A stretch of DNA of 53,545 nt from a virus, in the IMG/VR virus record IMGVR_UViG_3300037248_000068, positions 1 through 53,545 of that record. The stretch is one strand, 5' to 3'. The number at the start of each line of letters is the position of its first letter. Position 1 is the first letter of the stretch. A program made the position numbers and the translations under genes. Shown piece after piece: positions 26,919-44,671 of the stretch. Under the pieces are notes generated by a model. It was not told the DNA's origin. It did not search any database and saw nothing but the letters and a program-made list of their open reading frames with translations.

Positions 26919-26960
26919 AGCGGCTCGCGTCGTACGCTTGTGCGAGCCGCTTTCTTCTCT
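26919..26960 (+). terminator. Intrinsic terminator of the rightward head operon
   Basis: AGCGGCTCGC (26919-26928) and GCGAGCCGCT (26942-26951) form a 10-bp stem with a 13-base loop, followed by TTTCTTCTCT. It sits between two convergent genes. The stem could also stall leftward transcription, but that side lacks a T run. Confidence 0.82.
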
Positions 26961-27753
26961 ACAGCCCGAAATCGTACTTCAAGCCGAGCCAATATTGAGT
27001 CGTGAACTTGGCAGCGCCGCTCACCATGACGTTGCCGTTGGTGCCGAGTACGTTGCTGAAGGTGTCGCCGCGCTGCGGCCAGAAGACATCGGCGTAAACC
27101 TTCAGCGAGCCGTCGTTCGGCTTTCCGGTTGCGTCAAGCGTCTGCCAGCGAAATCCGGTCGTGAGGCCCGGAGCCCACCCGACAGCGGCCCCGCCCGCCT
27201 GTGCGAAGTTTCCGGTCAAACCGAACTCTTCCATTTTCAAGCCGACGTACTGGCGTGGCGCGGTGTTGACTGCAACGCCCGTGGGCAACGTTGGCGTGAA
27301 GGACGGGAATGGCAGGTTGAATCCGGCGCCGCTACCAAACGCCGCAAATGCGGCCTGGATTGCCGAGAACGCACCTATCCCGATATCCGCTTCCTGCGTG
27401 GAACTCCAGCGGGACGCGACCGACACTGGCCCGGCTGTCGCCGAAATGTTCTGATACCACCCGTCGGCTTCGAACTGCATCCAAGAGCCGAGTGGCCCCC
27501 TGTTGGTGATCCACCCGCACCCGCCGCCCACGGCACCGCCGGCAGCATTCACGTTGCTGTTGAGCAAGCTCGTTGCCAAAATACTGTTGCCCGACATGCT
27601 CGTTTGCGCGACGCCGGCTTGCGTGCCTAGGCCGCAGTACCAGCCGGACCCGGTGTTCGTCGAAAACGGCAGCGGCGCCTTGACAGGCATGTCGGCCGCG
27701 GACGCGACACTGGCGAAAAGCGCGAGCGCGGTACAAAGTACGTACTTTTTCAT
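26959..27753 (-). CDS. Host-like outer-membrane beta-barrel protein
   Basis: This 264-residue protein has a clear Sec signal peptide (MKKYVLCTALALFASVASA) and a mature start ADMPVKAP, the hallmark of the abundant Omp25/31-like proteins of Bradyrhizobium and relatives. The rest alternates in aromatic and polar residues as in a beta-barrel, with final strands TTQYWLGLKYDFGL. It is rare for a phage to carry such a gene. It could mask or replace receptors after infection, or be captured host DNA. It has its own promoter and lies at the end of the late leftward block. Confidence 0.8.
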   Translation of the reverse strand: MKKYVLCTALALFASVASAADMPVKAPLPFSTNTGSGWYCGLGTQAGVAQTSMSGNSILATSLLNSNVNAAGGAVGGGCGWITNRGPLGSWMQFEADGWYQNISATAGPVSVASRWSSTQEADIGIGAFSAIQAAFAAFGSGAGFNLPFPSFTPTLPTGVAVNTAPRQYVGLKMEEFGLTGNFAQAGGAAVGWAPGLTTGFRWQTLDATGKPNDGSLKVYADVFWPQRGDTFSNVLGTNGNVMVSGAAKFTTQYWLGLKYDFGL

Positions 27754-27815: not shown

Positions 27816-27833
27816 GTCCGCCACGCTTGGAAA

Positions 27834-28031: not shown

Positions 28032-28066
28032 AGCGTGCGCTCCTATGTACATGTGTGGCAACACTT

Positions 28067-28095
28067 GCCGTACACGCACAGACGCGCCGTGTCAA
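28067..28095 (-). promoter_or_regulatory. Promoter inside terminase 3' end
   Basis: On the minus strand TTGACA (28095-28090), 17 bp, TACGGC (28072-28067). It overlaps the stop of the terminase gene and drives the ribbon-helix-helix gene, so that gene can be expressed apart from the late operon. Confidence 0.62.
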
Positions 28096-29621: not shown

Positions 29622-29623
29622 GA

Positions 29624-30016: not shown

Positions 30017-30030
30017 GTACTTCCTCCTGA

Positions 30031-32418
30031 TTATGCTGCTTGCGCCAGCCACGCGGGCGAGTTGTCGTTGGATGCGGGGTCGAGGTCGCGGTTGAGCAGA
30101 AAATTGTGCGTTCCCATGACATAGCCGGTCCCTTGGAACCCGATGTAGACGGTGCCGTAGGTATTGGCATCACCCTCGATTGTGCTCACTGTATCGATGA
30201 TACCGAGGGGAAAATCCGTCAGCTTGGTCCAAGTCGTGGCGTGATTGTCGCTCTCCCAGATGCCGTATACGCCGTTTACCCATCCCGCAAGATAGATCGC
30301 TGGATAGCCCGAACCGCCCGGTTTGGCTTTGCCGAACCCGAAAGCCCAAACCTCGTGGATGGTGCCGGGAACGGCGTTGCACGTCACAGTGCCGGCGCTG
30401 TCCGTGCACTCTTCGAATGTCAGGTCCGTGTGCGGGTACGGCCCCGGCGTCTGATAGCCCGATGAGAAATACATGTCACCGGCATTGCCAGGAACGCAGC
30501 GGAGCTTGGCATTGAAGAATGACAACGTGCTGCTGTCGAAGATCCCGCTCTTGGCCAGCGTCCACGTCCAGCTTCCCGCAGCGTAGACACCCTTGTAGAT
30601 ACCCGCGGTGCTTGATCCGCCGTAGTTGTAGGCATAGTACGTGTCAGTCGAGACGCGATCGGCGCACATCGTCTGCCGGAAATAGTTGGCACTCGCGCTC
30701 CAGCCGATCGTGCCCGAAGTCGCCACGCCGCTGATCGGTAGCAGCGACCATGACGTTCCGCCGTTCGTGGTGGCATAGAGGCCGCCGTTCGGCGCCTGCA
30801 TCCACAGCATCACGTTGGCGGAACTCCGCGCCACCGAGCCGCCGTCGAAGCTGGTACCGCTGCCGCTCGGCACGGCGCCAATCTGTGCCCACGTGCCGCC
30901 GCCATTCGTCGAGAGTGATGAAAAGTCCCCGCTGCCAATATATGAGATACACATGCAGATGATGTCGGCCGGCGTCGCTGAGGCCCAGTCCGCCGACGCT
31001 CCCGCCACCACGTTCGTGAATCCACCGTACCCGCCGTGCTGCGAGAACGCTGGGTAGGCCGCCGGATTGGTGATGGTGAATATCTGCTGATCGGATACCG
31101 CGACAAGAGGATTACTTCCGCCCGTCCACGGGCTGATCGCCCATCTGGATACGAGCTGCTCCATGCCGGCGCCCTGCGACGTCCAGGTCAGCGACGCGCC
31201 GCCCGTGAAGCCGCTCGCGGTCCACACGTCGAAGCCGGACGTCGAGAATAGGAAATTCGACTGCGCCGGATCGAAGGCAATCTGGCCGACATCGGTGAAG
31301 GTGCTCTTGGTGTGGGCGAGCCACGGGATGTCGGTCGCAGCCAAGGTCATGTTCCCGGCCGCGACATAGCCGCCAAACGAAGCGCCACCGTTGGTGCTGT
31401 ACGTCAATTGTCCCGAGATGTTGGCGGCAGTCACGTTGCTGTTGTTCGCCGGATCGATGGCAACGCCCGTGATTGGTCCCGACGTGCTGGAGCCGACCGT
31501 CACGGTCGACCACGTTCCGCCGACGCCGCCGGAGTAGATGTAGAGCGTCTGATCGGTGCCGCCGTTGTTGCCGACCACGTAGAGCTTACCATTGGCAGGC
31601 GCGGATACCATGAACATGTGCGTCGTTGGCATCCCGCTCGTATTCAGCTCCGTCCAGGACGAACCGCCGTTGGCTGAGTGATAGACGCCGGTGCCGTAAC
31701 TCGTGATGTAGATGCCCTGCGTGGCGCCACCGCTCGTGCCGGAGTTGAGATCGAACGCTACCAGCATCCCATTCGAGGTCGCATTGGTGATTCCGGTCAC
31801 GGCGCCGAACGATGTGCCGCCGTTGGTCGACGTGAAGCACCCGCTTGCCTCCGTACACACCAACACGATGTTGGCGTTGGCGGGGTCAATCGCAATCTTC
31901 GGCCCCCACCAACGATCGTTGGCGTTGTAGGTTGAGTTCTGCGTGAAACCGGTCGCGGTCCACGTCGCCGACGATCCGCTCTTGAGATTGGCTGTCTTAT
32001 ACAAATAGCCGCCCATCATCATGTAGGCGACGTTGGTGTTGCTCGGCGCTATCCTGATCTCAAAGTTGTCGCAAAATGTGGACGGCGTGTTGAGGCACGC
32101 GCCGGCCGCGTTCATGGGATCTCCATTCGGCAGCGACGTAGAGGTGACAAGCTGCTGCCATGTCCCATTGGCGACCGAGACGTAGGCTCCATAGGTGTCG
32201 GTGCCGACTACTTTAGTCGTGGTGCCGCTGTTGTTGCACTGGCCGACGCCCTGATCGCATTGGATGTCGATGCGCGTGGAGAACCCACCGGCGCCAAGGT
32301 TGACGCGGCTGAATTGCTGGCCAGCAGAGGGCGCCTGGGCACCACTGAACTGTACGGTTTGCGCCGGTATCGAAACCTGCACTAAAATAACCAGCAACAG
32401 CGCTAATAATAACCTCAT
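30031..32418 (-). CDS. Secreted GH74-like Asp-box beta-propeller
   Basis: This 795-residue protein has a Sec signal peptide (about 1-19). Six Asp-box motifs of the S-x-N-G-G-x-S/T-W/F type occur near 197, 248, 341, 503, 550 and 737, each turning a propeller blade. The final region (IYLAGWVNGVYGIWESD to TVYIGFQGTGYVMG, about 715-770) matches the end of GH74 xyloglucanase-type enzymes. I infer a two-propeller glycan-binding or glycan-cleaving protein. With a signal peptide it would leave the host cytoplasm, unlike a normal tail spike. Substrate unknown; catalytic aspartates cannot be assigned with confidence. Confidence 0.66.
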   Translation of the reverse strand: MRLLLALLLVILVQVSIPAQTVQFSGAQAPSAGQQFSRVNLGAGGFSTRIDIQCDQGVGQCNNSGTTTKVVGTDTYGAYVSVANGTWQQLVTSTSLPNGDPMNAAGACLNTPSTFCDNFEIRIAPSNTNVAYMMMGGYLYKTANLKSGSSATWTATGFTQNSTYNANDRWWGPKIAIDPANANIVLVCTEASGCFTSTNGGTSFGAVTGITNATSNGMLVAFDLNSGTSGGATQGIYITSYGTGVYHSANGGSSWTELNTSGMPTTHMFMVSAPANGKLYVVGNNGGTDQTLYIYSGGVGGTWSTVTVGSSTSGPITGVAIDPANNSNVTAANISGQLTYSTNGGASFGGYVAAGNMTLAATDIPWLAHTKSTFTDVGQIAFDPAQSNFLFSTSGFDVWTASGFTGGASLTWTSQGAGMEQLVSRWAISPWTGGSNPLVAVSDQQIFTITNPAAYPAFSQHGGYGGFTNVVAGASADWASATPADIICMCISYIGSGDFSSLSTNGGGTWAQIGAVPSGSGTSFDGGSVARSSANVMLWMQAPNGGLYATTNGGTSWSLLPISGVATSGTIGWSASANYFRQTMCADRVSTDTYYAYNYGGSSTAGIYKGVYAAGSWTWTLAKSGIFDSSTLSFFNAKLRCVPGNAGDMYFSSGYQTPGPYPHTDLTFEECTDSAGTVTCNAVPGTIHEVWAFGFGKAKPGGSGYPAIYLAGWVNGVYGIWESDNHATTWTKLTDFPLGIIDTVSTIEGDANTYGTVYIGFQGTGYVMGTHNFLLNRDLDPASNDNSPAWLAQAA

Positions 32419-32419
32419 G

Positions 32420-33148
32420 TCAGTCCCACGTCGCGGCTACTATGCCTGCGTTGGTCGTGTTGGTCAGCCCGTTCATGTTCGGCGTTAGAGAGCCGGCGAC
32501 GGCGCTGTTTCCAAGAACGCCTCCGAAAGTAGAGATGCTGATAGATTTATCGTTCGTCATGTTAGTGAAATTCGGCGCCCCCGCAACAGTCTGCATTCCA
32601 AAACCAATAGCAAAACCAGCGGATGGCACCGTCACGGCAGAACTGCAAGCCAGGGCGCCGCCAGAAACAGAAGCGCTCGATCCGTTGCAGCTTGTCGTCG
32701 GCGTCGTCGACGTAAGATTAGCTAGGGTGCCTACGCCGACAAGCATGCGAAACCACGAGTTGGCAGACGCTGACGTGGCAACAATATTCTGTGAGCCGCT
32801 ACATGCGACCGTGCCGTACCACAGCGTCACTACGTAGTTGGTGTTGAAGGCCCCGGTGTCAGCAGCCTTCGACAGGGAGACCGGCGAAGACGTGCATGCG
32901 GTCACGGCAGAGATGGTGCTCCCCTGATAGCCGGCTACGCCGACGACTATGAACCCAGCCGTGACGCTGACGGCCTGCGTGCACGTCGTGGCGAAGCCGC
33001 AGGCAGCATTCTCTTCAATGTCGGTCGGTGTCCACGTCGGTGCCGGGGCACTTCCACTTATGGATACGTCATAGTTGGAGTCACGCGTCTGCCACCCCGC
33101 AAATGCTGGTAGAGCCCAAAGCAACAGTGCGAGAGCTAGACGGATCAC
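32420..33148 (-). CDS. Secreted fibre-like protein
   Basis: This 242-residue protein is read from GTG 33148, which overlaps the previous stop (GTGA). The N-terminus VIRLALALLLWALPAFAG is a signal peptide. The mature part is rich in Thr, Ser, Ala and Gly with eight spaced cysteines, consistent with a disulfide-stabilised exported beta-structure. Ends two bases before the GH74-like gene. No family is recognised. Confidence 0.65.
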   Translation of the reverse strand: MIRLALALLLWALPAFAGWQTRDSNYDVSISGSAPAPTWTPTDIEENAACGFATTCTQAVSVTAGFIVVGVAGYQGSTISAVTACTSSPVSLSKAADTGAFNTNYVVTLWYGTVACSGSQNIVATSASANSWFRMLVGVGTLANLTSTTPTTSCNGSSASVSGGALACSSAVTVPSAGFAIGFGMQTVAGAPNFTNMTNDKSISISTFGGVLGNSAVAGSLTPNMNGLTNTTNAGIVAATWD

Positions 33149-34149
33149 AGCGTGAACCCCGTCGCCGTCACGGATACGACGCCGCCGGTCCCCGGTGCAG
33201 CGGAAATGACCGCGATGCCTGTGTTGACGGCGCTCGCCGGGACGCATGGCGAGAATATCATCTCTGTCACACCGAGCCCGGAGGCGAGCGGTGCCGTCCA
33301 CTGCGTGAAGTTGAGTGTTCCTGTGATCGTGCCGGTCACGGTCGCGTTGCCCGTCGCCGCCGCCGTGGCGTTGGCCCGGATCGACATGCTGCACAAGTAG
33401 GTCGTGACTGACGCGCCTGTGGCGAGCGTCGCGGTGGTCGCCCCCGTCGTGCCCGTCGCCGAGGCCGTGATGGGCGTGGCTCCGGCTGGATAGCCCGCGC
33501 CGCCGATGCGCAGCCCGCCGTGAAGATCCATCGACAGGTAGTCGGTTTGCGCGGTTGTGTAGGCGGGGGCGGCCGTCGTCACCGCCGCCATCACTAGCGA
33601 GCCGGTCTGGCCGCTCGTGGTCGAGCTCTGCGCAAGACCTACTGCACCGGTCACGTAAGCATTGACACTAGGACACGCGACCGCACTTGGTGCCGTGCCG
33701 TAGTTACTGACGCACCCCGAGTTGATCGCCGTACCGCCCATCTGGTTCATGTTGACGGACTGGTTGGCCGCCAACGCACCGCCGGCCTGGAACGGCGTGC
33801 CGAGCGTCGTGTTGATCGTGGTGAGCGCCGTGTTGCCGGTCGTCTGAAGCGCGGACGTGGCGGCCCCGGTCGGAAGAGGCAACGCTGCGGCGCTCATCGG
33901 AACGGCCGTACCGCCGGTCACGCCCTGCATCGGGAGAGCAAAGCTGGCGTTGGGAGTGCCGGGGGCCGTCGCCAGCGGATTACCCGCCGTGTCGCCGAGT
34001 ATCTGCATCAGCGACTGCACGCCGCTGCCGACGTCCTTCGACCTGAACGTGACGCAGCTCGTGGCGCACGGTGTCACGAGGATGGCGTTATCCGCCGCCT
34101 CTGCGGGCAGCGCTGACAGCAGCGCGAGCAGGAGCAGAATCTTGCGCAT
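33145..34149 (-). CDS. Secreted repeat-rich fibre-like protein
   Basis: This 334-residue protein starts at ATG 34149 (TAATG overlap with the previous stop). A signal peptide MRKILLLLALLSALPAEA is followed by a Thr/Ala/Gly-rich chain resembling a fibre shaft, with paired cysteines near the mature N-terminus and a C-terminal beta domain. The longer frame from 34284 covers the upstream gene and is rejected. Function unknown; part of the exported cassette. Confidence 0.66.
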   Translation of the reverse strand: MRKILLLLALLSALPAEAADNAILVTPCATSCVTFRSKDVGSGVQSLMQILGDTAGNPLATAPGTPNASFALPMQGVTGGTAVPMSAAALPLPTGAATSALQTTGNTALTTINTTLGTPFQAGGALAANQSVNMNQMGGTAINSGCVSNYGTAPSAVACPSVNAYVTGAVGLAQSSTTSGQTGSLVMAAVTTAAPAYTTAQTDYLSMDLHGGLRIGGAGYPAGATPITASATGTTGATTATLATGASVTTYLCSMSIRANATAAATGNATVTGTITGTLNFTQWTAPLASGLGVTEMIFSPCVPASAVNTGIAVISAAPGTGGVVSVTATGFTL

Positions 34150-34415
34150 TACTTTTCCTCCGAAGTAGCAGGCGCGGCGGGCGGCGGCTGTCTGGCAGCA
34201 ACCGCGCGGTCCACGGCGGCGCGCGCCGCCGCCTCGTTCTGAGCCCGCACAGACGCCACGGTAATCTGCATGATATCGTTCCACTCATCCCACGACCCGC
34301 GCTTGATGGTATTCAGTATCTTGTCTACCTGATCCGCAGTGTACGGACCAAGCGTGTAGGTCTGCTGCCCGAGAGCGACCGTCGTCATCAGAAGCAGAGC
34401 GACAAGCGTTCGCAT
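34149..34415 (-). CDS. Small secreted helical protein
   Basis: This 88-residue protein has a short signal peptide (MRTLVALLLMTTVALG) and a mature helical part with an Ala-rich C-terminus ending SEEK. It begins directly after the previous stop. The small size plus export suggests a periplasmic adaptor or spanin-type partner, but no lipobox is seen. Function unknown. Confidence 0.6.
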   Translation of the reverse strand: MRTLVALLLMTTVALGQQTYTLGPYTADQVDKILNTIKRGSWDEWNDIMQITVASVRAQNEAAARAAVDRAVAARQPPPAAPATSEEK

Positions 34416-34616
34416 TCAGAAGACTCCTGCGTACTGCGAATTGCATGATTGCGTGAAGTCGAAGCCCGTACCAGCACAGCCCGAAGGCGTTACGGTTACG
34501 GTTCCAGTCCCTGGAGTCTGCGGCACCCCGGGCGCAAAGCCGCCGGGAACGCCGGCCTGCCCCCACGCGGCTGCGGCGAGGGCGACGATGGCGAGGAGCG
34601 TGAGGGGGAGGCGCAT
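34416..34616 (-). CDS. Small secreted protein
   Basis: This 66-residue protein starts at ATG 34616 in a TGATG overlap with the previous gene. The signal peptide MRLPLTLLAIVALAAAAWG is followed by a Gly/Pro/Thr-rich mature chain with two cysteines. It resembles the N-terminal part of the exported fibre proteins and might be a truncated or accessory form. Confidence 0.58.
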   Translation of the reverse strand: MRLPLTLLAIVALAAAAWGQAGVPGGFAPGVPQTPGTGTVTVTPSGCAGTGFDFTQSCNSQYAGVF

Positions 34617-34714
34617 CACTTGCCATCCGATTTATTGTGACGACAACGAAGAAGATTGAACATCGCCATGCCGAGAGTAGCGGCGAGCATAATCTCACTG
34701 AGATAATGCCGCAT
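34616..34714 (-). CDS. 32-residue membrane peptide
   Basis: This short ORF starts at ATG 34714 in a TGATG overlap and ends in a TGATG overlap with the next. It has one hydrophobic helix (about 8-23) and a basic tail RCRHNKSDGK. The double coupling argues that it is translated. Function unknown. Confidence 0.5.
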   Translation of the reverse strand: MRHYLSEIMLAATLGMAMFNLLRCRHNKSDGK

Positions 34715-35163
34715 CACTGCGCCCCCAGCAGCTTACTGTACTCGGCCGGCTGCAAGACCTTCATCGCGGCCACGATCACCTTGTCGCCGTTCTGCATGAG
34801 CTTGTAGAGCCCGCCGATGCGATCCATCAGGTCGTCGGCCTGCTTGTGGGTGAGTGCGGCGGCGTGGTCGCTGCCGTACTTGTCGAGCACGGCGCGAAGC
34901 GACGCCTTGGTGCGCCAGTCCATGTTGCGGTCGGACTCGATGGCGAAGCTGACGCCGTAATTGGCGGCGGATGCGAGCGTGAGCGGGGGGCAGTCCTTGC
35001 GCTCCGGATCAACTTTAGCATCCCACGTTGGCGGGCAGTCCTTGATGGGCCTACCGTCAGCCTCAGAGAGCGCGGCGGTCATGTCTACGGTCCACGGCTT
35101 CGCGTCGTCGGCGAGCGCCAAGGAGTACCAAATCATCGCGACCGCAATAAGTGCAGTTTTCAA
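34714..35163 (-). CDS. Secreted protein, 149 residues
   Basis: A signal peptide (MKTALIAVAMIWYSLALA) precedes an acidic mature domain with two CPP motifs (about 43-45 and 58-60) likely joined by a disulfide, then a helical C-terminal half. The start overlaps the end of the tail-spike gene by four bases. Not recognised; export and disulfides point to the periplasm or cell surface. Confidence 0.65.
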   Translation of the reverse strand: MKTALIAVAMIWYSLALADDAKPWTVDMTAALSEADGRPIKDCPPTWDAKVDPERKDCPPLTLASAANYGVSFAIESDRNMDWRTKASLRAVLDKYGSDHAAALTHKQADDLMDRIGGLYKLMQNGDKVIVAAMKVLQPAEYSKLLGAQ

Positions 35164-36923
35164 TTCAGTCTCCTTTTAATACTATTGATTTCTATTTGTT
35201 GGCGGCGGAATATTTCAACAGTTAGGCCCCATGTAGCGGCATAGTCAAAATGACGAATGCCATGTGAATCCATGTCTACCAACTCCGGAAAAGCCAACTC
35301 CCAGTCATTGGCAATAACGCCGATACGGCGACCCGGCGCGCCATACCCATCATTATACGAGAACCGCACGCCACGGTTAGCGAGTACCTTGTCCAGTACA
35401 TCATCTTCAATAGGTTCAATGTCATGCTTCACTGACCGATCAGATGCAACGCATGTCGTGATACCTGACGACAGTAATCCGGCCGTTTCACATACGAATA
35501 ATCCAGTAGCGCTTGACACAGTGCCGACCGTAAGAGTTCCTGCCGTAATAACAGCTTGTGTGACGCCCTTTATCGTTAAAGCCGTTACGGCTGAATTTTG
35601 AACCGTTGCGCCAGCACCACTACCACCGGTTTGCAAAACGATGTCACCGCTCGCACCAGAGCCTGTGCTACGTGATCCGATTAACGTCCAATTAGCGCCA
35701 GCGACATTTGAATTGCCGGCCGCCACGTTTTGCACCTGGAATGTCTGAGCCGAGGCTGCTGTTGTGTCGGTAAACCCCAACTGAAGAGTTAGAGTCGCGG
35801 GAGACGTAATTGCCGTGTTACCGTTGCGTAGTTCAAAGGCACCATTGTTCGTGGTAATTCCGACAACATTGGTGCCGACAACCGTGAGCCCACTCACGTT
35901 ACCGCTAGGATCGACACAGTATCCAGTGGATTTAAATGAACATCCCCCGGATTGAAAGGTAACTGCTGAAAAATCGACGCCATTAAGAGCGACTGATGGT
36001 GACGCAGTTCCCGCAGTTCGAACTTGCGCGCCAATCAACGTACTATCAGTGGCGAAAGCCCATTGGTGAGCGTAGGCACCAAACATGATGCCTGTTTTCC
36101 AGCCGACAGCAGATGCGTTGTCTTGGGCACCAAACTGAATACCATTATCGTCATAAACGGCACGCACAGCATCGTTAGACCCAAGAACGACCGTTAGGCC
36201 GTGTTTCTCCGCGGCCGAAGTTCCACCCGCAAGCGTTACATCGTTCTCTTGAGAATTTACCAGCGACACAAAAGTGGCACCTGAAGTCGTATATATGTCA
36301 AACCCGCCGCCAAACGCAGTGCCTTTGTAGTTTGCGTATGCTCCGGTCGTTCCACCTAAATTTGCGGACACACGAGTTATCCCGCCTACAGCTACATATC
36401 CGGCAGCGCTCAAAGTAGTTGGCGTTCCAACTATATTTTCTGCCCCCTGGATTACGGTCCTACCACCGGTTGATCCGGCAGATGTGGCGTGACCAACATA
36501 GAAAACATTGAGATTTCCATTTCCATTGGTTGTGGTGTCAACACTGTCTCCACCTACGTAAATATGAAACGGCGCTAATATTGCGTCGCTTGCTAATTGG
36601 GTGGCGGTTCCAGTGAGGGACAATCCGTTAACTGAAAGCCACTGCTGATTGATCGATCCGGCACCAGAGTAGACGATGCTGTTGGTGAATTGCAGCCCCT
36701 TCGGAACCACTGCCGGCGCGGTATACGCCGACGCATCCTGCACCCCCTGCGTCAGCGGCCCGACGACGACCAGATCTCCCACGGTGCCGGCGGACGGCAG
36801 CACCTGCGAGCCGGGGCCACCCCCGCCCCCGATCGGCACGTCGACAATTTGCCCCCACGCCCCGCCGCAGGCCGCCAACAGGGCGAGCGCCGCAGCGCCG
36901 ATCAGTCGCGAAAACGGATTCAT
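35160..36923 (-). CDS. Tail-spike-like protein with S74 chaperone and lipobox
   Basis: This 587-residue protein starts at ATG 36923, overlapping the endolysin stop. It begins with a signal sequence MNPFSRLIGAAALALLAAC with lipobox LAAC (Cys19), or alternatively a cut after AWG. The bulk is a Gly/Thr/Ser-rich beta repeat region. The last 94 residues are an S74 intramolecular chaperone (ASDRSVKHDI, with catalytic-type Ser494 and Lys499; GVIANDWE; Gln-rich final helix), which folds trimeric spikes and cleaves itself off. S74 plus a signal peptide is an unusual combination. It may be a virion spike or a surface-anchored trimer. Confidence 0.75.
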   Translation of the reverse strand: MNPFSRLIGAAALALLAACGGAWGQIVDVPIGGGGGPGSQVLPSAGTVGDLVVVGPLTQGVQDASAYTAPAVVPKGLQFTNSIVYSGAGSINQQWLSVNGLSLTGTATQLASDAILAPFHIYVGGDSVDTTTNGNGNLNVFYVGHATSAGSTGGRTVIQGAENIVGTPTTLSAAGYVAVGGITRVSANLGGTTGAYANYKGTAFGGGFDIYTTSGATFVSLVNSQENDVTLAGGTSAAEKHGLTVVLGSNDAVRAVYDDNGIQFGAQDNASAVGWKTGIMFGAYAHQWAFATDSTLIGAQVRTAGTASPSVALNGVDFSAVTFQSGGCSFKSTGYCVDPSGNVSGLTVVGTNVVGITTNNGAFELRNGNTAITSPATLTLQLGFTDTTAASAQTFQVQNVAAGNSNVAGANWTLIGSRSTGSGASGDIVLQTGGSGAGATVQNSAVTALTIKGVTQAVITAGTLTVGTVSSATGLFVCETAGLLSSGITTCVASDRSVKHDIEPIEDDVLDKVLANRGVRFSYNDGYGAPGRRIGVIANDWELAFPELVDMDSHGIRHFDYAATWGLTVEIFRRQQIEINSIKRRLN

Positions 36924-37480
36924 GCCATGACCGCCATTTGGAGGGACGCCGCGCCGATTTCCGACGTGCGGCGCTCCCAGTCTTTGCCAAATCGAGTGAA
37001 TCCACCGAACCCGCGATACATGAGCGTGCGGCGCTCCGTAAATGCACGAATCACAGCGGACACGTTCTTGATGCCCTTTACGGCCGCATCGGTCTGCGGC
37101 CCCCATTTGCCATCCACGGAGATACCTAGGGCGTGCTGCAGTATTTCGACGCCGTGGCTGCCTTCGTTGACTTCCGCGTCAAAGAAACTCAGGTCGAGTC
37201 CAGGCGGCAGCTCCGGGCAATAGGGCAGCCAATATTTGTGATAGTAGATGTCGTCGCCTTCGTCCTCCGTACACTGACGCACGTCGCGACGCGGCTCGCC
37301 CTTCTGAGCGCGATATCGGTCGTATTCGACCTGGATAAGGCCGTCCATGGTCTTGCCGCCGGGGTCGCCGACATCGTTGCTGAAGTTGCGCGGGTTGCCC
37401 CAGTTGGACGGATACGGGCACTCTTGCATCAGCGTGAAAGGGAGACACGCCGCAAAGCGTTCGCTACCGTAGTTGTTCAT
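36920..37480 (-). CDS. GH108 endolysin (N-acetylmuramidase type)
   Basis: This 186-residue protein is read from ATG 37480. The GH108 plan is clear: a helix with an acidic residue in MQEC (about 18-21, probable catalytic Glu), NDVGDPGGKTMDGLI (about 35-49), RDVRQCTEDE, then the peptidoglycan-binding half with LPPGLDLSFFDAEVNEG (about 91-107) and LGISVDGKWGPQT (about 118-130). It degrades the host cell wall at lysis. It has no signal peptide, so a holin is required. It sits between two fibre-like genes. Confidence 0.85.
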   Translation of the reverse strand: MNNYGSERFAACLPFTLMQECPYPSNWGNPRNFSNDVGDPGGKTMDGLIQVEYDRYRAQKGEPRRDVRQCTEDEGDDIYYHKYWLPYCPELPPGLDLSFFDAEVNEGSHGVEILQHALGISVDGKWGPQTDAAVKGIKNVSAVIRAFTERRTLMYRGFGGFTRFGKDWERRTSEIGAASLQMAVMA

Positions 37481-37484
37481 GGTG

Positions 37485-38774
37485 TCACCCTGCCATTTGT
37501 ACGGGCTCGTTGTTGTCGTTCGCGGGTTCGAGGGCACCCTGTATCTCATCCAATATTAATACTGCCCCTGCATTGGCAGCGGGGATGGTTACTGTTCCTG
37601 AAGCGCCATTCCCAAAAACACTGTACGTTAGTGACGTGGACCTTGGAATATCAAAGAAAATCAATGTTGCAGGCACGTAGCCACCTGCCGTGCTGGAGAA
37701 ACTCGTTAGTTCGCCTATCAGAGTAGAACCGCGTGCCATCTGCATGGAGACGCTGGATGCTGCCGAATTTTGCATACTGCTTTGGAGAAATCCCCTGACT
37801 ACGTTAGTGGATGAACTTAAATTAATGGAGAGACTTTGCCCGTTAGTTAACGCCTGAGGGATACCTGCGTTCGCAGAAACAGTCCCGTTTGTGGCGGTGG
37901 CGTTAAAAACTGACTGAATAACATCTCCAGGTTTTTTGATCCCAGGGCCAAACAACTGAACAAGGCTCAGTCCCGTCCATCCGGTCCCGGACGCCCATGT
38001 GGCCTCCACATAACCAACAATGCGATAGGGTCGTGAGGTAACAGAAGACACTGAGCAGTACGCAAGTTGAGAAGACGTTCCGCCAGAAGTCCCCGACCCG
38101 CTAGAAAACAAAATAGCTTCGTTCAGTGGAGAGATGCTACTTGCATTCAAAGCGTTGAATGCACACAGTGCGATCCCGGCCCCGGTACCGTTAGTGTCAG
38201 ATGCCAATATCCACAGCCGACAGAGCGTGGAGGTGGTGCAGCCTAACGAGCTGGTAGTTGCTAACGTGAACGTCAGAGCCGATTGGAGTGGAAGAATCGT
38301 CGGCGCTCCACTCGTAAGTGCCGCCGAGCGGAAGTTAAAAAACGCAGTATCCGCGGTGGAAGGCGTTGCGCCTGCGGTAGTCAAAATACTGAGCACCAAC
38401 GTGTTTGCCGTCGCTACCGCCGTCACTTGTCCGTTCAGCATGCTCGCGCCCGTATTGGCAGCGAACGGATTTACCCACGTCGCGTCACCACGCCAGAACG
38501 TCGACGAATTCGCACCCGTACCGCCGTTCAGATTGCCTACAGGCAGGTTGCCGGTGACACCCGCGGTGCCAAGACCAATGGCACCGCAGATTGGGTCCGC
38601 GGAGCTGCCCTGACCGATGATAGGGACGTTGACGGAACACGGCGGCACGTTGCCGAAGCCGATGGCGCCCGCGCCGCGACCGAGCGGCACGGAATGGTTT
38701 GGCGTCTGCCACTGTGCATGTACGGACGCACAGGACAAAAACAGCGCGGTGACGACGGAGAAAAAGCGTTTCAT
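37485..38774 (-). CDS. Signal-peptide-bearing tail fibre-like protein
   Basis: This 429-residue protein from ATG 38774 (TGATG overlap) begins MKRFFSVVTALFLSCASVHA, a signal peptide, then WQTPNHSVPLGRGAGAIGFG and GTAGVTGNLPVGNLNGGTGAN (about 80-100), a shaft motif I know from fibre-like proteins of alphaproteobacterial prophages. The C-terminal part is a Ser/Thr-rich beta domain. Export signals on such proteins are unexplained. It lies directly upstream of the endolysin. Confidence 0.7.
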   Translation of the reverse strand: MKRFFSVVTALFLSCASVHAQWQTPNHSVPLGRGAGAIGFGNVPPCSVNVPIIGQGSSADPICGAIGLGTAGVTGNLPVGNLNGGTGANSSTFWRGDATWVNPFAANTGASMLNGQVTAVATANTLVLSILTTAGATPSTADTAFFNFRSAALTSGAPTILPLQSALTFTLATTSSLGCTTSTLCRLWILASDTNGTGAGIALCAFNALNASSISPLNEAILFSSGSGTSGGTSSQLAYCSVSSVTSRPYRIVGYVEATWASGTGWTGLSLVQLFGPGIKKPGDVIQSVFNATATNGTVSANAGIPQALTNGQSLSINLSSSTNVVRGFLQSSMQNSAASSVSMQMARGSTLIGELTSFSSTAGGYVPATLIFFDIPRSTSLTYSVFGNGASGTVTIPAANAGAVLILDEIQGALEPANDNNEPVQMAG

Positions 38775-39391
38775 CATGGCGCGATTACCCATGCGTTAAG
38801 GTCGGGGGACGGCTGCAGCATGACCCCGGCGAGCTGGACGGCGGTCGAAAACAACTGCCATGACTCGGCCCCCATGATAGTTGCCGAATCAGGCACCGTC
38901 AACGTGATAACGTGATTCGCGACGCCCGTAGAAAAGTCCACGATCTGTAACTTTTTAGCGGCAGCAAATTGCGCTGCGAGATTCGGCAGCACGATCGTTG
39001 TCGCGGCCGGCGCCGCGCGCTGTACAGCCGCCAGTGTCGTACCCGTCGCTATGGCCAGTCCGGTGTTGTTGAGCGACTGGAACACGTACCCAGATGTGAG
39101 AGGGAGGAAGTACGCCTGCCACAGGGCCGGCGTGGCGGGTTGGTACGCCGCCGCTCCCGCGTTCCACAAGTAAACGACGCCTTCCGCAGTCCACGACGGA
39201 ACGGCGGGCTGAAACCAAACTGTCGCGGCCTGATTGACCGTCGGCGCTGTGGCTTGCACCGCAAGATTGATAAAGCCCGCACGCGCCAAAGCGGCAACGA
39301 CGTAATCGAGCCCCGGCATTTGCTCCGTACGTACACCGCCGCCCGTATTGCGGAGCAGCGCCAGAAAATCCGTTGACGGCGTGTAGGACAT
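38774..39391 (-). CDS. Tail fibre or base protein
   Basis: This 205-residue protein has no signal peptide. It opens MSYTPSTDFLALLRNTGGGVRTEQMPGLDYVVAALARAG, a phrase found in tail-associated proteins of several phages, and continues as an Ala/Thr-rich beta domain ending DLNAWVIAP. Its stop overlaps the next start. Probably a virion component; the exact place is unknown. Confidence 0.62.
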   Translation of the reverse strand: MSYTPSTDFLALLRNTGGGVRTEQMPGLDYVVAALARAGFINLAVQATAPTVNQAATVWFQPAVPSWTAEGVVYLWNAGAAAYQPATPALWQAYFLPLTSGYVFQSLNNTGLAIATGTTLAAVQRAAPAATTIVLPNLAAQFAAAKKLQIVDFSTGVANHVITLTVPDSATIMGAESWQLFSTAVQLAGVMLQPSPDLNAWVIAP

Positions 39392-39402
39392 GGCGCCCCT
39401 AC

Positions 39403-39843
39403 CTAAATGCTGTGGGTATCCTCACCCGTGTATAGCGGATTCAGCGTTACGTTGACGGAACTCGCCGCGCCGGGCCACGCGCCTGCCGCCTTCGGCCCGT
39501 ACATCGACACGGGATTAAGACCGTAGTTTCCGAAACCTGCCCACAGCAAGTAGTAGTCTCCGTTCACGCCGATATCGTTCGTCGGCGGGAACGTGCCGAA
39601 CCACTTCAATTGCGGCTGGTAAGTCGGATCGACCAAAAAGACGTAGTGCCCCCAAGGGTCAACATCGCCGCCAGCTTCCGTCGACCGCTTCGTGTACAGG
39701 GTCCACGCTGCGGTATCAATATAGAGATCGCCAACAGCCCCGGCTTGCGGTACCGGCGGCCCAGTCCCGCGCATGATGGCGCCCATCTGCTTCGCTTGGA
39801 AGTAGATGCCGCCCTGTTGCGTGCCGTTGTCAAATCCGGAAAT
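39403..39843 (-). CDS. Virion protein, paralog of 39865-40506, probable ATT start
   Basis: A 146-residue reading begins at ATT 39843, with GGGAGG five bases upstream. Residues from that codon (ISGFDNGTQQGG) align exactly with the GTG start of the neighbouring paralog (VTGFDNGTAQGG), and no ATG, GTG or TTG is available there. The first ATG (39786) would remove 19 conserved residues. The two proteins share GDLYIDTAAW, VDPWGHY, QLKWF, GFGNYGL and a final NPLYTxEDxHSI. A tail-fibre or collar role is likely. Confidence 0.7.
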   Translation of the reverse strand: MSGFDNGTQQGGIYFQAKQMGAIMRGTGPPVPQAGAVGDLYIDTAAWTLYTKRSTEAGGDVDPWGHYVFLVDPTYQPQLKWFGTFPPTNDIGVNGDYYLLWAGFGNYGLNPVSMYGPKAAGAWPGAASSVNVTLNPLYTGEDTHSI

Positions 39844-39864
39844 CGCAACCTCCCATTACCGGCC

Positions 39865-40506
39865 TCATATGCTGTGCTCATCTTCGGCCGTATACAACGG
39901 ATTCAGCGTCACGGTAACGACGGACGGAACGCTTTGCAAACCCAGTTCGCTGATAAGCGTTCCGGCAACGTTGGAAACCGGCGTCGCCAGCACGTATTCA
40001 TCCACAAGACCCGCGACTATCAACTGCGTCGAATTGCTGTACGCGGCCTGCGCACCTTCGCCAAACAAGCCGAGCGGAAACACAAAACCAGCGCCCGCTA
40101 CGGCAATCGTTGTCGTCGGGCCGTTCCCACTTTCCGGCCAAGTCCCGCTTGCGTTCTTTGGCCCGTAAATCGACGGCTGTAAACCGTAGTTGCCAAAACC
40201 CGCCCATGACAAGCAATAATCGCCAGTAACGCCGATACTGTCATCCGGCAGCGACGTGCTGAACCACTTCAATTGCGCCTGGTACGTAGGTGGTACGGCG
40301 AAAAGATAATGGCCCCACGGATCGACCCCGCCGCCTGCATCATTGGACCGCTTGGTATGCAGAACCCATGCCGCGGTGTCGATGTACAAATCACCGACTA
40401 GGCCGCCTTGCGGCACCGGCGGCCCGGTCCCGCGCAAAATCGAGCCGAACTGTTTGGCCTGAGAATAGACGCCACCTTGCGCCGTCCCGTTGTCGAAGCC
40501 AGTCAC
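39865..40506 (-). CDS. Virion protein, larger paralog
   Basis: This 213-residue protein starts with GTG 40506 and is related throughout to the 39403-39843 protein, but has an extra 70-residue insertion (about 130-195) before the shared C-terminus VTLNPLYTAEDEHSI. The shared core has a VPQGG..GDLYIDTAAW motif known from phage tail proteins that bind fibres or collagen-like repeats. Tandem duplication followed by loss or gain of the insert explains the pair. Confidence 0.7.
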   Translation of the reverse strand: MTGFDNGTAQGGVYSQAKQFGSILRGTGPPVPQGGLVGDLYIDTAAWVLHTKRSNDAGGGVDPWGHYLFAVPPTYQAQLKWFSTSLPDDSIGVTGDYCLSWAGFGNYGLQPSIYGPKNASGTWPESGNGPTTTIAVAGAGFVFPLGLFGEGAQAAYSNSTQLIVAGLVDEYVLATPVSNVAGTLISELGLQSVPSVVTVTLNPLYTAEDEHSI

Positions 40507-40922
40507 GTCCCGCGGCCTCCGCGTCCGCTACGCGCCACGCGGAGCGCCATGTTGATGCCGGTACCGTCGCCATTATTAATGGCGAGAGCACGCAACCGAA
40601 CCCACCCCGAGCCGTGCACATCTCGGCTTGTAGCTACGACCATGTTTTGCCACTGATCGACCGGAAACGCTGCGGAGTTCGGGTCCGTACCGAACAACTT
40701 CATTTCCATCAATACAGAGCATTCCGGCGCGATCGGTGTCATCGTGACCGTACTTGACGCGGGCGTGTTGAACACGATTGATGCGCGTGCGATGTTAACC
40801 GCGAGCGCATCACCTTCGTTGACCGGAAGCCAGCCGGTGGCAAGCCCGGCAGCGTCGACGTACACGCAATCGTACTGACGATTGATCGCCTTCGTGCTGC
40901 CGCCGGGACGATAGAATGTCAC
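40503..40922 (-). CDS. Virion protein of unknown role
   Basis: This 139-residue, beta-rich protein read from GTG 40922 (GGAAG upstream) overlaps the next gene by four bases. It opens TFYRPGGSTKAINRQYDCVYVD and carries a central strand-rich region. Position between the fibre paralogs and small genes suggests a tail or head-fibre component. No family is recognised. Confidence 0.6.
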   Translation of the reverse strand: MTFYRPGGSTKAINRQYDCVYVDAAGLATGWLPVNEGDALAVNIARASIVFNTPASSTVTMTPIAPECSVLMEMKLFGTDPNSAAFPVDQWQNMVVATSRDVHGSGWVRLRALAINNGDGTGINMALRVARSGRGGRGT

Positions 40923-40928
40923 GTGCGT

Positions 40929-41192
40929 CTACTTCCGAGCGGGCTTGCTGAATGCCGTACGGCCCCTGAACACGGTGCCGCCGGACTCGCCTTCGCCATG
41001 CTTTGCTCGCGCGAGACGCCGATTGCCCGAACTGATATCGGCGACGGCACCCGGGAAGCGTTTCAACGGCCCCGCGGGCACGGCAGGGCGACCGCCGAAC
41101 TTCGTCTTGGGCGGCCCCAACGGGTTCGGAACGACGTCGTTTTCACCCGATGGGTTGAACCCCGTCTTGTGGCCGCAGAACCGCGTGCTCAT
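40929..41192 (-). CDS. Small basic Gly/Pro-rich protein
   Basis: This 87-residue protein from ATG 41192 (AAAGGACG upstream) has a basic, low-complexity sequence with many Gly, Pro, Lys and Arg and little predicted structure. It might line the virion interior or bind DNA. The longer frame from 41228 has no binding site. Function unknown. Confidence 0.58.
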   Translation of the reverse strand: MSTRFCGHKTGFNPSGENDVVPNPLGPPKTKFGGRPAVPAGPLKRFPGAVADISSGNRRLARAKHGEGESGGTVFRGRTAFSKPARK

Positions 41193-41224
41193 TTTCTTTC
41201 GTCCTTTCGGCAGCGTGGCCCTTT

Positions 41225-41701
41225 TCAATCGCCAAGAGCGCTCCCGGCGGTGCGCGAACTAAACTGTTCGTCAGTCTCGCCCGGCCGACGCACGGATTTA
41301 TCTGCCGTACTCCGAGGGAAAGGCCCGGAATCGCGCTGGCCCCCGTTCCGAACCCGGTCCCCGATCGCACTTTCCGCCGCCTTGATGTACTCGCGAAGTT
41401 CCTTGGCTCGGTCTGTGTCGGCGCCCCCAGAACGTTCCAAATTGGCGAGCTCTGCCTTGAAGCTCTCCAGGTTCGGCGAAGTCGTGCCGTGACCGCCGTG
41501 CAAGTCCTGGACTTTATCAAGGTCCGGGTGCTGCGTGAGTTGGTGGACCCTGCCGGCCGCCGACTTCACGATGTCGGCGAAATTCTGATTCTGCAGGTTT
41601 CGGGCCGCGTTTTCCAGCTCATGCAGCGCATCGCGCATGCGTTCGAGCCCCGTCCGCACGCTGTCGTCCGCCCGCATGTCACTGTGTGCTTCCCGTTCCA
41701 T
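41225..41701 (-). CDS. Helical virion or assembly protein
   Basis: This 158-residue protein is charged and largely helical (about 10-60 and 75-115), with a Gly/Ser/Arg-rich C-terminus. No membrane segment or known motif. Its helical nature recalls small internal virion or scaffold-like proteins. Function unknown. Confidence 0.6.
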   Translation of the reverse strand: MEREAHSDMRADDSVRTGLERMRDALHELENAARNLQNQNFADIVKSAAGRVHQLTQHPDLDKVQDLHGGHGTTSPNLESFKAELANLERSGGADTDRAKELREYIKAAESAIGDRVRNGGQRDSGPFPRSTADKSVRRPGETDEQFSSRTAGSALGD

Positions 41702-41731
41702 GACCTGTGCTCCCTTTGGGTTTTGCGTGAT

Positions 41732-42019
41732 CTACCTGCGTTCGTTCGGCGGCTGCCGAATCATGGCCTTGATTTCTGCGAACCCGCCATCGACCTTACC
41801 CTCGAGGCGCGCCATCCGTTCGCTCATGGTCGAAAGCACCTTAACTTGTTCTTTGAGCGTAGTCACGTCGCTTGTGACGCCGGACATGAACCATGCACCG
41901 GTAACGATGCCGCCACCGCCGGCCAGCGTAATGCTGATAAGCAGTGCAAGCGGAATGGCGCGATCGATATGCCAGCTCCTGCCGTACACGCGATCGTTTT
42001 CCATGGCGTCATTTCTCAC
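41732..42019 (-). CDS. Membrane-anchored coiled-coil protein
   Basis: This 95-residue protein is read from GTG 42019 (GAGGG upstream). It has a short cytoplasmic N-terminus, one membrane helix (about 24-43), then a coiled coil (about 50-85) in which hydrophobic positions repeat every seven residues. This plan occurs in phage lysis accessory proteins and in DUF2730-like proteins. A lysis role with the holin and endolysin is possible. Confidence 0.62.
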   Translation of the reverse strand: MRNDAMENDRVYGRSWHIDRAIPLALLISITLAGGGGIVTGAWFMSGVTSDVTTLKEQVKVLSTMSERMARLEGKVDGGFAEIKAMIRQPPNERR

Positions 42020-42076
42020 GTTGCCCTCAATTGCGTCGTGTTAACGTCCAACTCGGCAAAGAAGTTTCACGCCTTG

Positions 42077-42262
42077 TCAGCCATGCGACGAATAGCGACG
42101 CTGTAGACCATACCGCGCCGCGGTTCCTCCCCCGTCGTCAAACATGTCCGACGGCGCGTTGATGACGATTTCCGACGGCGCGCCGCTACCGTTGCTCTGC
42201 AAGTGCACTTTACGGATGCCGCCATCAGAGCGCGCCACTTCGCATGTGAACCGGCCGCGCAT
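42077..42262 (-). CDS. Small protein of unknown role
   Basis: This 61-residue protein from ATG 42262 has GGAGAGCG upstream. It looks like a small beta-rich domain with a Gly-rich C-terminus and shows no known motif. It lies three bases after the 42265 gene, so the two are probably co-translated. Confidence 0.55.
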   Translation of the reverse strand: MRGRFTCEVARSDGGIRKVHLQSNGSGAPSEIVINAPSDMFDDGGGTAARYGLQRRYSSHG

Positions 42263-42264
42263 GC

Positions 42265-42489
42265 TTAACGCTCTCCGTCGTGGTCTCGCTCCATTTTTCG
42301 ACCGCGCACCTCCCCGATGGCTTGGTCCCCTTCACTCAACTTTTGCTGGATACCGTTGGTATTGTGAATCACTTGGTTCATCTTATCGCGGCTCCCGTGC
42401 GCTATGATGATTTGCCAGACGACGCCGCTACCGATCAGAATCTCGACTGCAAGTCGAACGATCTGAATGGCTATTTCTAGTTCCGGCAT
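42265..42489 (-). CDS. Small membrane protein with charged tail, holin candidate
   Basis: This 74-residue protein has one strongly hydrophobic helix (about 6-29: IAIQIVRLAVEILIGSGVVWQIII) and then a charged helical tail. Together with the 41732 protein it makes a membrane pair typical of lysis cassettes. One membrane span at the N-terminus and a cytoplasmic charged tail fit a class III-like holin or antiholin. Not proven. Confidence 0.58.
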   Translation of the reverse strand: MPELEIAIQIVRLAVEILIGSGVVWQIIIAHGSRDKMNQVIHNTNGIQQKLSEGDQAIGEVRGRKMERDHDGER

Positions 42490-42492
42490 ATT

Positions 42493-42882
42493 TTAGCTCC
42501 AATAGCTGACGCTCATTGTCGTACCGATTATCTTAACTGCGGCGAGCGCAGCGGCGCCGTACAGGGGCAGCGCACCGCCGGCAGGAATCGCGGAGGTGTA
42601 GTTGACGGTGCTCGGCGTCGACCCGTCATAAGTGATGTACGCCGTTCCACCGATTGCGGTAATGATCGCATACGTTGGAACGTTATTGACAGTCGTGCCG
42701 GGCGTCGACGTCGCGCCGGACGGTACAGTCAAGCCCGTCGCAACTGCGATGCTGACGTTTTCCTGCGACGCGAGTTGAATGCGCGATGGTACGTCATCGG
42801 AAACGAAACGCGAGGCGCCGAGCTTCACGGCCTTGGCCATGAAGCTGTTGGGGAACTGATTCGCGAGGTCAACGCCGCTCAT
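42493..42882 (-). CDS. Virion decoration-type protein
   Basis: This 129-residue protein, beta-rich with Thr/Ser/Ala bias and no signal peptide, opens MSGVDLANQFPNSFMAKAVKLGASRF and ends in hydrophobic strands. Similar proteins coat heads or tails. Starts a few bases after the O-antigen-like gene. No family is recognised. Confidence 0.56.
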   Translation of the reverse strand: MSGVDLANQFPNSFMAKAVKLGASRFVSDDVPSRIQLASQENVSIAVATGLTVPSGATSTPGTTVNNVPTYAIITAIGGTAYITYDGSTPSTVNYTSAIPAGGALPLYGAAALAAVKIIGTTMSVSYWS

Positions 42883-42889
42883 GGCTCAG

Positions 42890-43978
42890 TTAGCCTTCTG
42901 TTTGATGACATCGATCCAAGGAAACAAGCGCGCCGCGTGCGGAACATTTTGGCTGCTTCCGCGATAGTACGCTAAATCCACAATCACAGCCGTCACCGCA
43001 AGGTACAGCATAATCCCGCAGAATGCGGCCCGTAGCAGCCACAGCAAGCAACGAAGTGATCGGCATGTAGAGCGGCATTGAGTAGCAAGAGGCAACAGCA
43101 AACGCGACGACAACCGGCCACTCTTTGGACCCCGTACGCAAGAGTGCAACACTGAGTATGCTGAGCGGCAGAAGCGCGCCCATCCCGTATTCAAACAAGA
43201 GCTGCAGCGCATCATTGTGTGCGTGCCCCGGATACAAAACCTGACCCGCTTGCGTGATATTCACAGCAGAGAACGCACCCGGCCCCCAACCAAACCAGTT
43301 CAGCCCGTGCCATGCCACTTCCCAAATCAACATACGCTCTTGGTCCGACGTACGTCCCAACGGCATGAACAGGTAAAAAATACCCACTGCGGCGACTATC
43401 GCACCGAGCGGCCACGCCCGCCTGAATCGCAGGGCAATCAAGCCGACTGCCAAGGCGAGCCACGCACCGCGCGACTGAGAGAGGACAAGACCTGGCACGA
43501 GTGGGACTATCCACAGCCACATCCGCTCCGTCGCCAGCGCGACGATAAGCAAAGCCAGCACGGCGCCTTGCTGTACGCTGTTGACGTACAACCCCGGAGG
43601 TGCCGTGGAAGTGACGGGGAGAAGCTGCCATCCCGCGTATTGCAAAACAGCCACTGCCGACGATACTGCACCCCCGATCGCAAGACCCGCGTACAAACCT
43701 CGCAACGTTGTCAACGTCGATCCTAGCCACAGATTGAGCCCCATCAACACGACCAACCAAAACCCGAATACGGCATTGTACGGAACTACGCTGAACCAAA
43801 CACCGATCGCGGCGTACAAGATGAATAGCACGCCGAACCCATGCAACACCGTGAACGGCGCGCTGCGGAACACGGTAAAAATTGACAGAACCGCCAACAC
43901 GGGCCACTGCGTTGCGATATACGCACCCGTAATACCGGGCACGTAGCAGAGCGACACGATGGCGCCGAGCCAAACCAC
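42890..43978 (-). CDS. O-antigen ligase/polymerase-like membrane protein
   Basis: This 362-residue polytopic membrane protein is read from GTG 43978 (GGAGGGCG upstream). At least eight hydrophobic helices and a periplasmic loop with YPGHAHNDALQLLFEYG (about 248-264) match the Wzy/WaaL O-antigen family, where His and nearby residues are essential. Such enzymes join or polymerise surface glycans, and phages use them to change the host surface and exclude rivals. The last 40 residues are Cys-rich and unlike the rest, while the alternative frame from about 43035 gives another perfect membrane helix, so a frameshift near 43000-43040 is likely. Confidence 0.74.
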   Translation of the reverse strand: MVWLGAIVSLCYVPGITGAYIATQWPVLAVLSIFTVFRSAPFTVLHGFGVLFILYAAIGVWFSVVPYNAVFGFWLVVLMGLNLWLGSTLTTLRGLYAGLAIGGAVSSAVAVLQYAGWQLLPVTSTAPPGLYVNSVQQGAVLALLIVALATERMWLWIVPLVPGLVLSQSRGAWLALAVGLIALRFRRAWPLGAIVAAVGIFYLFMPLGRTSDQERMLIWEVAWHGLNWFGWGPGAFSAVNITQAGQVLYPGHAHNDALQLLFEYGMGALLPLSILSVALLRTGSKEWPVVVAFAVASCYSMPLYMPITSLLAVAATGRILRDYAVPCGDGCDCGFSVLSRKQPKCSARGALVSLDRCHQTEG

Positions 43979-44008
43979 TTTCGCGCCCTCCTATCGAATC
44001 AGGCGTCC

Positions 44009-44671
44009 TTAGTGGCCGCCGATCGGGAACGGCAGCACTGCGGCACCGGGACCGTTGTTTCCGTACCCGCATAGGCGCGCCAGCGTGTAGAAGGGGATAT
44101 CGCCGCCGACGCTCGCCTGCATCGGTATGGCAACGGCGGGCGTGGTCGGGCACGCCGCACCCCACGCAAGCGGCGTCTGCGCATTGATTGTGACGTTGGT
44201 CGAGACGCTGATTTGCGTCCCGCTGGCCGCCGTCACGAATACGTACTGTGGAATTGTGATGGACGTGAGCGACGGATTCGCGCCGGCCGAAATCAGGCAG
44301 CCCACGCACGGCGGCGTGGTGGGGGTGGCGTTCAGGATGATAAGCGTTGACGGGTACTGCACCGTCAACACGCCCTGACCTGTGTAGGATGGCAGACCCG
44401 TTGCGCACGTTCCGCAAGCCGAACCGGCGGCGACGCCGCTGCCGGACGAAGTTGCAAAGCGCGCGCTGCCTTGCACGATGCGCAATTCGAGCGGCCCATT
44501 GCCGAAGTCGGTCACGCCGGGAGCCGGGTTGATAACGATTGGCAGCGGGAGCGCGGTCGCGGTAATCTGCTGCGACGTGACTTGCGCGCTCGCCGCGTGC
44601 GGTACCAGCACCGCGGCGACAATCAGCGTATTCAGTGCGAGACGATGCGCCCAACTCTTTCCGTAGTTCAT
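44009..44671 (-). CDS. Secreted protein of unknown role
   Basis: This 220-residue protein from ATG 44671 has a signal peptide of about 29 residues ending AASA. The mature part is Thr/Ala/Pro-rich and beta-structured, with eight cysteines in CGTC, CVGC and later pairs that probably form disulfides after export. It lies directly upstream of the O-antigen-like gene. The longer frame from 45052 overlaps the previous gene and is rejected. Function unknown. Confidence 0.68.
   Translation of the reverse strand: MNYGKSWAHRLALNTLIVAAVLVPHAASAQVTSQQITATALPLPIVINPAPGVTDFGNGPLELRIVQGSARFATSSGSGVAAGSACGTCATGLPSYTGQGVLTVQYPSTLIILNATPTTPPCVGCLISAGANPSLTSITIPQYVFVTAASGTQISVSTNVTINAQTPLAWGAACPTTPAVAIPMQASVGGDIPFYTLARLCGYGNNGPGAAVLPFPIGGH

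Follow-up and report, generated by a model that had tools for sequence, protein, structure and literature searches.

The viral record IMGVR_UViG_3300037248_000068 from IMG/VR, whose whole stretch of 53,545 bases was analyzed here and is termed the window, harbors a late minus-strand block in which ten genes (26959 to 44671, each designated by its lower coordinate) carry predicted signals for export from the cytoplasm. It is proposed, with a probability of about one half, that this cassette encodes exported, disulfide-bonded adhesins and proteins active on glycans, whose place of action would be the host envelope or the space outside it; the sequence features behind this reading are the signal peptides and how they are conserved, the distribution of cysteines, the kinds of domain present and the turnover of the tips. 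The cassette proteins are most likely not parts of a virion that is assembled in the cytoplasm.

The export signals were evaluated with a home-made, rule-based Sec scorer, which was calibrated on eight known exported proteins (OmpA, PhoA, MalE, LamB, Lpp, Bla, DsbA and TolC) scoring 5.8-9.6. The ten genes, in nine of which the first-pass annotation had read Sec-type signal peptides or a lipobox (26959 being its tenth candidate, an outer-membrane protein), all scored 6.1-10.1 and were confirmed as exported; each N-terminus displays one to three Lys or Arg residues, an uncharged hydrophobic core of 8-15 residues and an A-x-A-type site. Scores of at least 6.1 were reached by 10 of the 25 genes in the minus-strand block (26.9-44.7 kb) versus 1 of 56 elsewhere (Fisher p=1.5e-5), the sole outside positive being a two-helix membrane peptide, which upholds the earlier claim of a cassette of exported, partly fiber-like proteins inside the late operon. 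At a stricter threshold of 7, the window gave eight positives, three near-complete relatives gave eight to nine and one relative gave five. The idea that signal peptides of this kind are common to any phage was ruled out by five unrelated phages (P22, Pseudoalteromonas H6/1, Roseobacter CRP-7, ctKR88 and Erwinia PEp14), which yielded zero to one positive each at the same threshold, mostly spanin-like. Because most cassette start codons overlap or adjoin the upstream stop (ATGA and similar), the starts were placed at the signal peptides, which corrected those of 32420 (to 33148, GTG), 33145 (to 34149), 34416 (to 34616), 35160 (to 36923), 37485 (to 38777) and 44009 (to 44671).

The export signals of the cassette appear functional, as judged from two features of the predicted proteins. 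In the 37485 family, to which the examination of the cleavage site was confined, the signal peptides of 12 members share a mean identity of only 27% and keep their hydrophobicity, positive charge and A-x-A-type site despite this divergence, while the first 14 mature residues are 90% identical and the following 33 are 48% identical. This step in identity at the predicted cleavage site therefore points to a selection boundary there, as cleaved signal peptides evolve; a signal peptide was present in all 13 matches to the 37485-type pattern. The second feature is the cysteine count. In a non-redundant set of mature parts from the window and nine relatives, 40 of 43 exported proteins carried an even number of cysteines (p=1.5e-9) versus 51 of 123 other proteins (41%). 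Further contigs, analyzed as a second set, gave 37 of 41 (p=5e-8) versus 21 of 57 (37%); the binomial tests take proteins below 60% identity as independent, so that their significance is somewhat overstated, and homologous families occur in both sets. Cysteine content in the first set was 1.80% in the exported and 0.88% in the other proteins. All ten exported genes of the window follow the even pattern (0, 2, 2, 2, 4, 6, 6, 6, 6 and 12 cysteines), and both the 37485 family and the 44009 family include cases where a pair of cysteines is lost jointly. In many bacteria, proteins that are exported favor an even cysteine number owing to disulfides (PMC7678975), and the even bias together with the doubled content is therefore taken to indicate that disulfides form in the periplasm.

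The predicted export is a clade-wide trait across dozens of phages of ~50-55 kb. The window terminase does not exceed ~31% identity with any entry among 50,697 phage records, and the phage group is therefore regarded as uncultured; its terminase relatives are 74-88% identical. Relatives were gathered via four routes (the terminase, the QTPNH pattern, the 44009 family and the 38774 family) and amount to dozens of contigs, a large share of them 50-55 kb long, whose signal peptides ruled out a trait limited to the window phage. Wherever the region is complete, three core exported genes are kept: a 37485-family gene behind 38774, a 44009-family gene behind 44707 and, close to the terminase, a gene for a protein of outer-membrane-barrel type, while the remaining exported genes undergo near-total turnover from relative to relative. 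Downstream of 38774, an open reading frame with a scored signal peptide was found in 27 of 29 relatives (L177 and L178 among the 27 are doubtful); in 25 of those 27 it is the immediate next gene with a mature start of the Q(W/Q/F/Y)Q type, and L167 and L168 score low at this place, yet their N-termini resemble signal peptides by eye. Neither the QTPNH module nor relatives of the GH74-like protein 30031 were found in 84,980 bacterial genomes, which leaves both without a prophage or host link, and no relatives of 42890, 44009 or 33145 were found among the 50,697 phage records. A Hyphomicrobiales-type host, suggested by an AADMPVKA-like porin start, is only a guess. Two other metagenome records (L002 and L003) contain stretches near-identical to the window phage, mostly at 100%. 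Beyond the clade, the fiber motif FWRGDATW occurs in other phages, a minority of which also carry signal peptides. As a separate observation, signal peptides lie on fiber-motif or neighboring proteins of other, seemingly unrelated phages (L016, L027, L038, L040, L054, L057, L068, L073, L084 and L085), and the exported proteins of all such loci taken together show an even-cysteine bias (20 of 26).

Among the cassette genes, all on the minus strand, the core gene 37485 (37485..38777) encodes a signal peptide, the mature start QWQTPNHSVPxGRG, a fiber-like linker and an exchangeable tip, and occurs in two tandem copies in the relative G006. The tip in the window may be TNF/C1q-like, as suggested by a weak fold match; its model is of modest confidence (mean predicted local distance difference test, pLDDT, 54), with the mature N-terminus modeled as unstructured, and its fold matches include lambda gpJ, Bdellovibrio fibers, TNF-like lectins and phage fibers. 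Its upstream neighbor 38774 (38774..39391), which is adjoined by a 37485 family gene in all relatives examined, is a cytoplasmic-type fiber or adaptor gene with an ATGA overlap and no signal peptide. The second core family is represented by 44009 (44009..44671), whose product has six cysteines and the cleavage site ASA|QV and adjoins the conserved gene 44707; its AlphaFold model (pLDDT 50) was too poor for a fold search. The third, 26959 (26959..27753), is predicted to encode an exported outer-membrane-barrel-type protein with the site ASA|AD and two cysteines. It has no Pfam match itself; at its place relatives carry an exported protein whose mature part likewise begins with an AD-rich stretch, and which in L004 (6278-7054) matches OMP_b-brl (PF13505, E=4e-10).

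An enzyme-like product is that of 30031 (30031..32418), a 795-residue protein with 12 cysteines and a signal-peptide score of 8.3. Residues 113-769 match PDB entry 6p2m (phmmer against PDB, E=9e-41) together with other GH74 entries, so the Asp-box propeller noted earlier stands as a propeller and is now assigned to a GH74 xyloglucanase-like two-propeller protein. The Asp of SADW, which we take to be catalytic in GH74, is aligned to SIDY of 6p2m, while the N-terminal Asp (GTDTYGAY) falls outside the alignments. This gene was found only in the window phage and one identical contig. The gene 35160 (35160..36923) is predicted to encode an exported or lipid-anchored fiber-like protein, in which a lipobox (LAAC) and an alternative signal peptidase I site would lead to a lipoprotein or a soluble form; besides the lipobox cysteine it has four cysteines, and the S74 domain recognized earlier was substantiated by Pfam (Peptidase_S74, E=1.5e-11) as an intramolecular chaperone/protease at its C-terminus. 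The first-pass description of several products as tail fibers or spikes was not upheld in that form, being too narrow: 30031 matches secreted GH74 xyloglucanases, and further glycan-active folds occur in relatives.

PHROGs and Pfam gave no family match for most cassette genes, including 32420 (32420..33148), which encodes an exported 242-residue protein with six cysteines and a GTG start overlapping the upstream gene by 4 nt. The exported 334-residue product of 33145 (33145..34149), also with six cysteines, has a C-terminal domain in common with an exported protein of L004 (14542-15387). Smaller predicted exported products are encoded by 34149 (34149..34415; 88 residues, no cysteine, score 6.1), 34416 (34416..34616; 66 residues, two cysteines) and 34714 (34714..35163; 149 residues, two cysteines, a TTG start and a 4-nt overlap with the upstream gene). 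The products of 34416, L007 4610-4858 and G003 25994-26242 have in common a motif with two cysteines at the C-terminus, which would apparently give each of them one disulfide. Inside the cassette there is also a GH108 endolysin lacking a signal peptide (36920..37480; Pfam Glyco_hydro_108, 1.4e-14), and between exported genes lies 42890 (42890..43978), a membrane protein of about nine helices (nine hydrophobic segments) in the Wzy_C/O-antigen ligase family (Pfam Wzy_C, 2.5e-9, 37.5 bits against a gathering cut-off of 31.7), with homologues in G002 and G004 and none in G001, G003 or L004. Among the proteins exported in relatives are a spike of pectate-lyase-like type, a beta-helix, a propeller of the Sortilin/BNR kind, a tip rich in Gly and a protein with collagen repeats. 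Collagen repeats are seen in L104 (10220-12808), where an exported 862-residue protein has a family match for its collagen part only and bears two motifs (HEACNEQWNGG and GYEGGQ) that look glycoside hydrolase-like by eye.

In the remainder of the window, the plus strand carries genes for DNA polymerase, primase, helicase, exonuclease and single-stranded DNA-binding protein, and the leftward late block contains the terminase, the GH108 endolysin, fiber genes and a 1302-residue protein (46922-50830) that harbors a phage lysozyme domain (PF00959) in its interior and is likely an ejection protein. No integrase was seen among the window genes tested.

Under the proposed reading, the late operon proteins would be made, leave the cytoplasm via Sec and shed their signal peptides, whereupon disulfide bonds would form in the periplasm (Dsb folding). 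The exported set would consist of trimer-type fibers with lectin-like tips (37485 and 35160), the glycan hydrolase-like 30031, the outer-membrane-barrel-type 26959 and small disulfide proteins, with the Wzy_C-type membrane enzyme alongside. These proteins would be displayed on the exterior of the infected cell or freed with the virions at lysis, where surface or matrix polysaccharides would be bound, cleaved or masked; the expected gain would be a smaller loss of virions to matrix, debris or the receptors of the dying cell, together with reduced superinfection. Actual export, late synthesis, surface location or release, and benefit are what we infer. The glycan and surface themes of the GH74 homology, Wzy_C, the OMP_b-brl, pectate-lyase-like, beta-helix and Gly-rich proteins of relatives, and the fold matches to TNF-like lectins and fiber tips support this reading, and the exported MAT fibers of Bdellovibrio (see below) offer a parallel in architecture. 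The earlier suggestions that such proteins block rivals, hold released virions or alter adhesion are retained as an incomplete list, beside which a polysaccharide-acting role must be set because of the GH74 homology of 30031 and the glycan-active folds in relatives.

Several points weigh against this proposal. The signal-peptide scorer is home-made; 30031 is a putative GH74 enzyme by homology, with candidate catalytic residues; and 44009, 32420, 33145 and 34714 have no assigned function. Sec alone leads to the periplasm, and a further route through the outer membrane would be needed; genes for superinfection exclusion seldom lie so late. Moreover, 37485 is locked to the fiber gene 38774, and its conserved N-terminus with an exchangeable tip follows exactly the plan of a virion receptor-binding protein.

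This last point leads to the main rival, a rather doubtful one overall, in which exported receptor-binding proteins would be disulfide-folded in the periplasm; their attachment to the virion, through the QWQTPNHSVPxGRG N-terminus, would take place during lysis or later. The lock-step stop-start overlap of 37485 with 38774, the conserved mature module, the tandem copies in G006 and the predicted resemblance of its tip folds to tail-fiber tips all fit this explanation. However, no precedent for tailed phages adding exported fibers after lysis was found, the same operon also holds fiber-like genes lacking signal peptides (38774, 39403 and 39865), and the GH74, Wzy_C and barrel genes would be left unexplained. 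A more inclusive view can be advanced tentatively, namely that this clade of lytic-looking tailed phages makes disulfide-bonded receptor-binding fibers and glycan-active proteins in the periplasm for either display on the cell or addition to the virion at lysis; this would be a previously undescribed branch of phage morphogenesis outside the cytoplasm, or of cell-surface conversion.

It is unlikely that the cassette supplies secreted accessory enzymes or adhesins that feed or protect the host, such as 30031 acting on plant xyloglucan: the GH74 homology combined with a signal peptide and the glycan-active folds of relatives would suit such auxiliary metabolism, but the position is late and lysis-linked next to the endolysin, the genes tested include no integrase, most members are fiber-like or lack an assigned function, and the GH74 gene was found only in the window phage and its identical contig. 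That the N-termini are anchors left uncleaved in the membrane, or hydrophobic by chance, on virion proteins of the usual cytoplasmic kind is highly improbable, since the conservation boundary of the 37485 family, the excess of even cysteine counts seen in both data sets and the near-empty control phages outweigh the reliance on a single predictor and the low scores of 35160 and 34149.

In textbook tailed phages, all fiber proteins are built in the reducing cytoplasm. If the proposed reading is true, a phage clade with up to about ten exported, disulfide-bonded late proteins of fiber-like and glycan-active type would use the periplasm as a workshop, and infected cells would gain a new coat, or their surroundings would be digested, either ahead of lysis or as it occurs. 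The virus would thereby equip or alter the exterior of its host rather than only assemble particles inside. The even-cysteine test offers a cheap route to more such cases in sequence data.

Compared with known S74 or beta-helix tail fibers and tailspikes, the cassette shares the domain types, the modular N-terminus and the variable tip; those proteins lack Sec signals, and their synthesis and assembly are cytoplasmic, whereas the cassette proteins combine signal peptides with an even-cysteine bias. The likeness to P22 gtrABC lies in phage proteins sent to the envelope to change the host surface, which the Wzy_C and barrel genes fit. The T5 lipoprotein Llp and phage outer-membrane proteins such as Lom are likewise envelope-directed proteins of surface remodeling or superinfection exclusion. 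Systems of the gtrABC, Llp and Lom type, however, comprise one or few small genes, often expressed from prophages, whereas the cassette has up to ten genes, several of them large and fiber-like, in a late operon. The GH74 xyloglucanases (PDB 6p2m, 6mgj, 2cn3 and 7kn8) resemble 30031 in the two-propeller match over ~650 residues and the signal peptide, while 30031 is divergent, phage-borne and a putative enzyme.

The first-pass remark that no such system had been described holds for phages in the open-access literature searched, where no report of a conserved multi-gene exported cassette in a phage clade was found, only single genes. These include gp40 of Xanthomonas phage PBR31, a hydrolase with an N-terminal signal peptide (PMC10975493), and p25/p26 of phage VarioGold, an O-antigen ligase gene adjoining a signal-peptide protein (PMC9658991), both of which are isolated genes outside any conserved multi-gene cassette. 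The remark does not hold for bacteria, in which the mosaic adhesive trimer (MAT) fibers of Bdellovibrio bacteriovorus form a close precedent, with a signal peptide, a conserved N-terminal part and exchangeable phage-tail-fiber-like tips that include S74, beta-sandwich, TNF-like and lectin domains, and with several such fibers per genome (PMC10769870). The cassette likewise combines signal peptides with fiber-like exchangeable tips (S74 and, from a low-confidence model, TNF-like), and Foldseek matched the 37485 tip to Bd2133 and Bd2734. MAT proteins carry a conserved ~130-residue beta-rich domain after the signal peptide, and the mature N-terminus of 37485 is modeled as unstructured; the comparison covered signal peptide and tips, and MAT membership is not claimed. 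MAT fibers are also encoded by the bacterium and much longer (~1,000 residues), while the cassette is phage-borne and shares a late operon with genes for lysis. If the proposal is true, the cassette would be a likely phage counterpart of the bacterial MAT adhesins and a source of testable exported phage enzymes.

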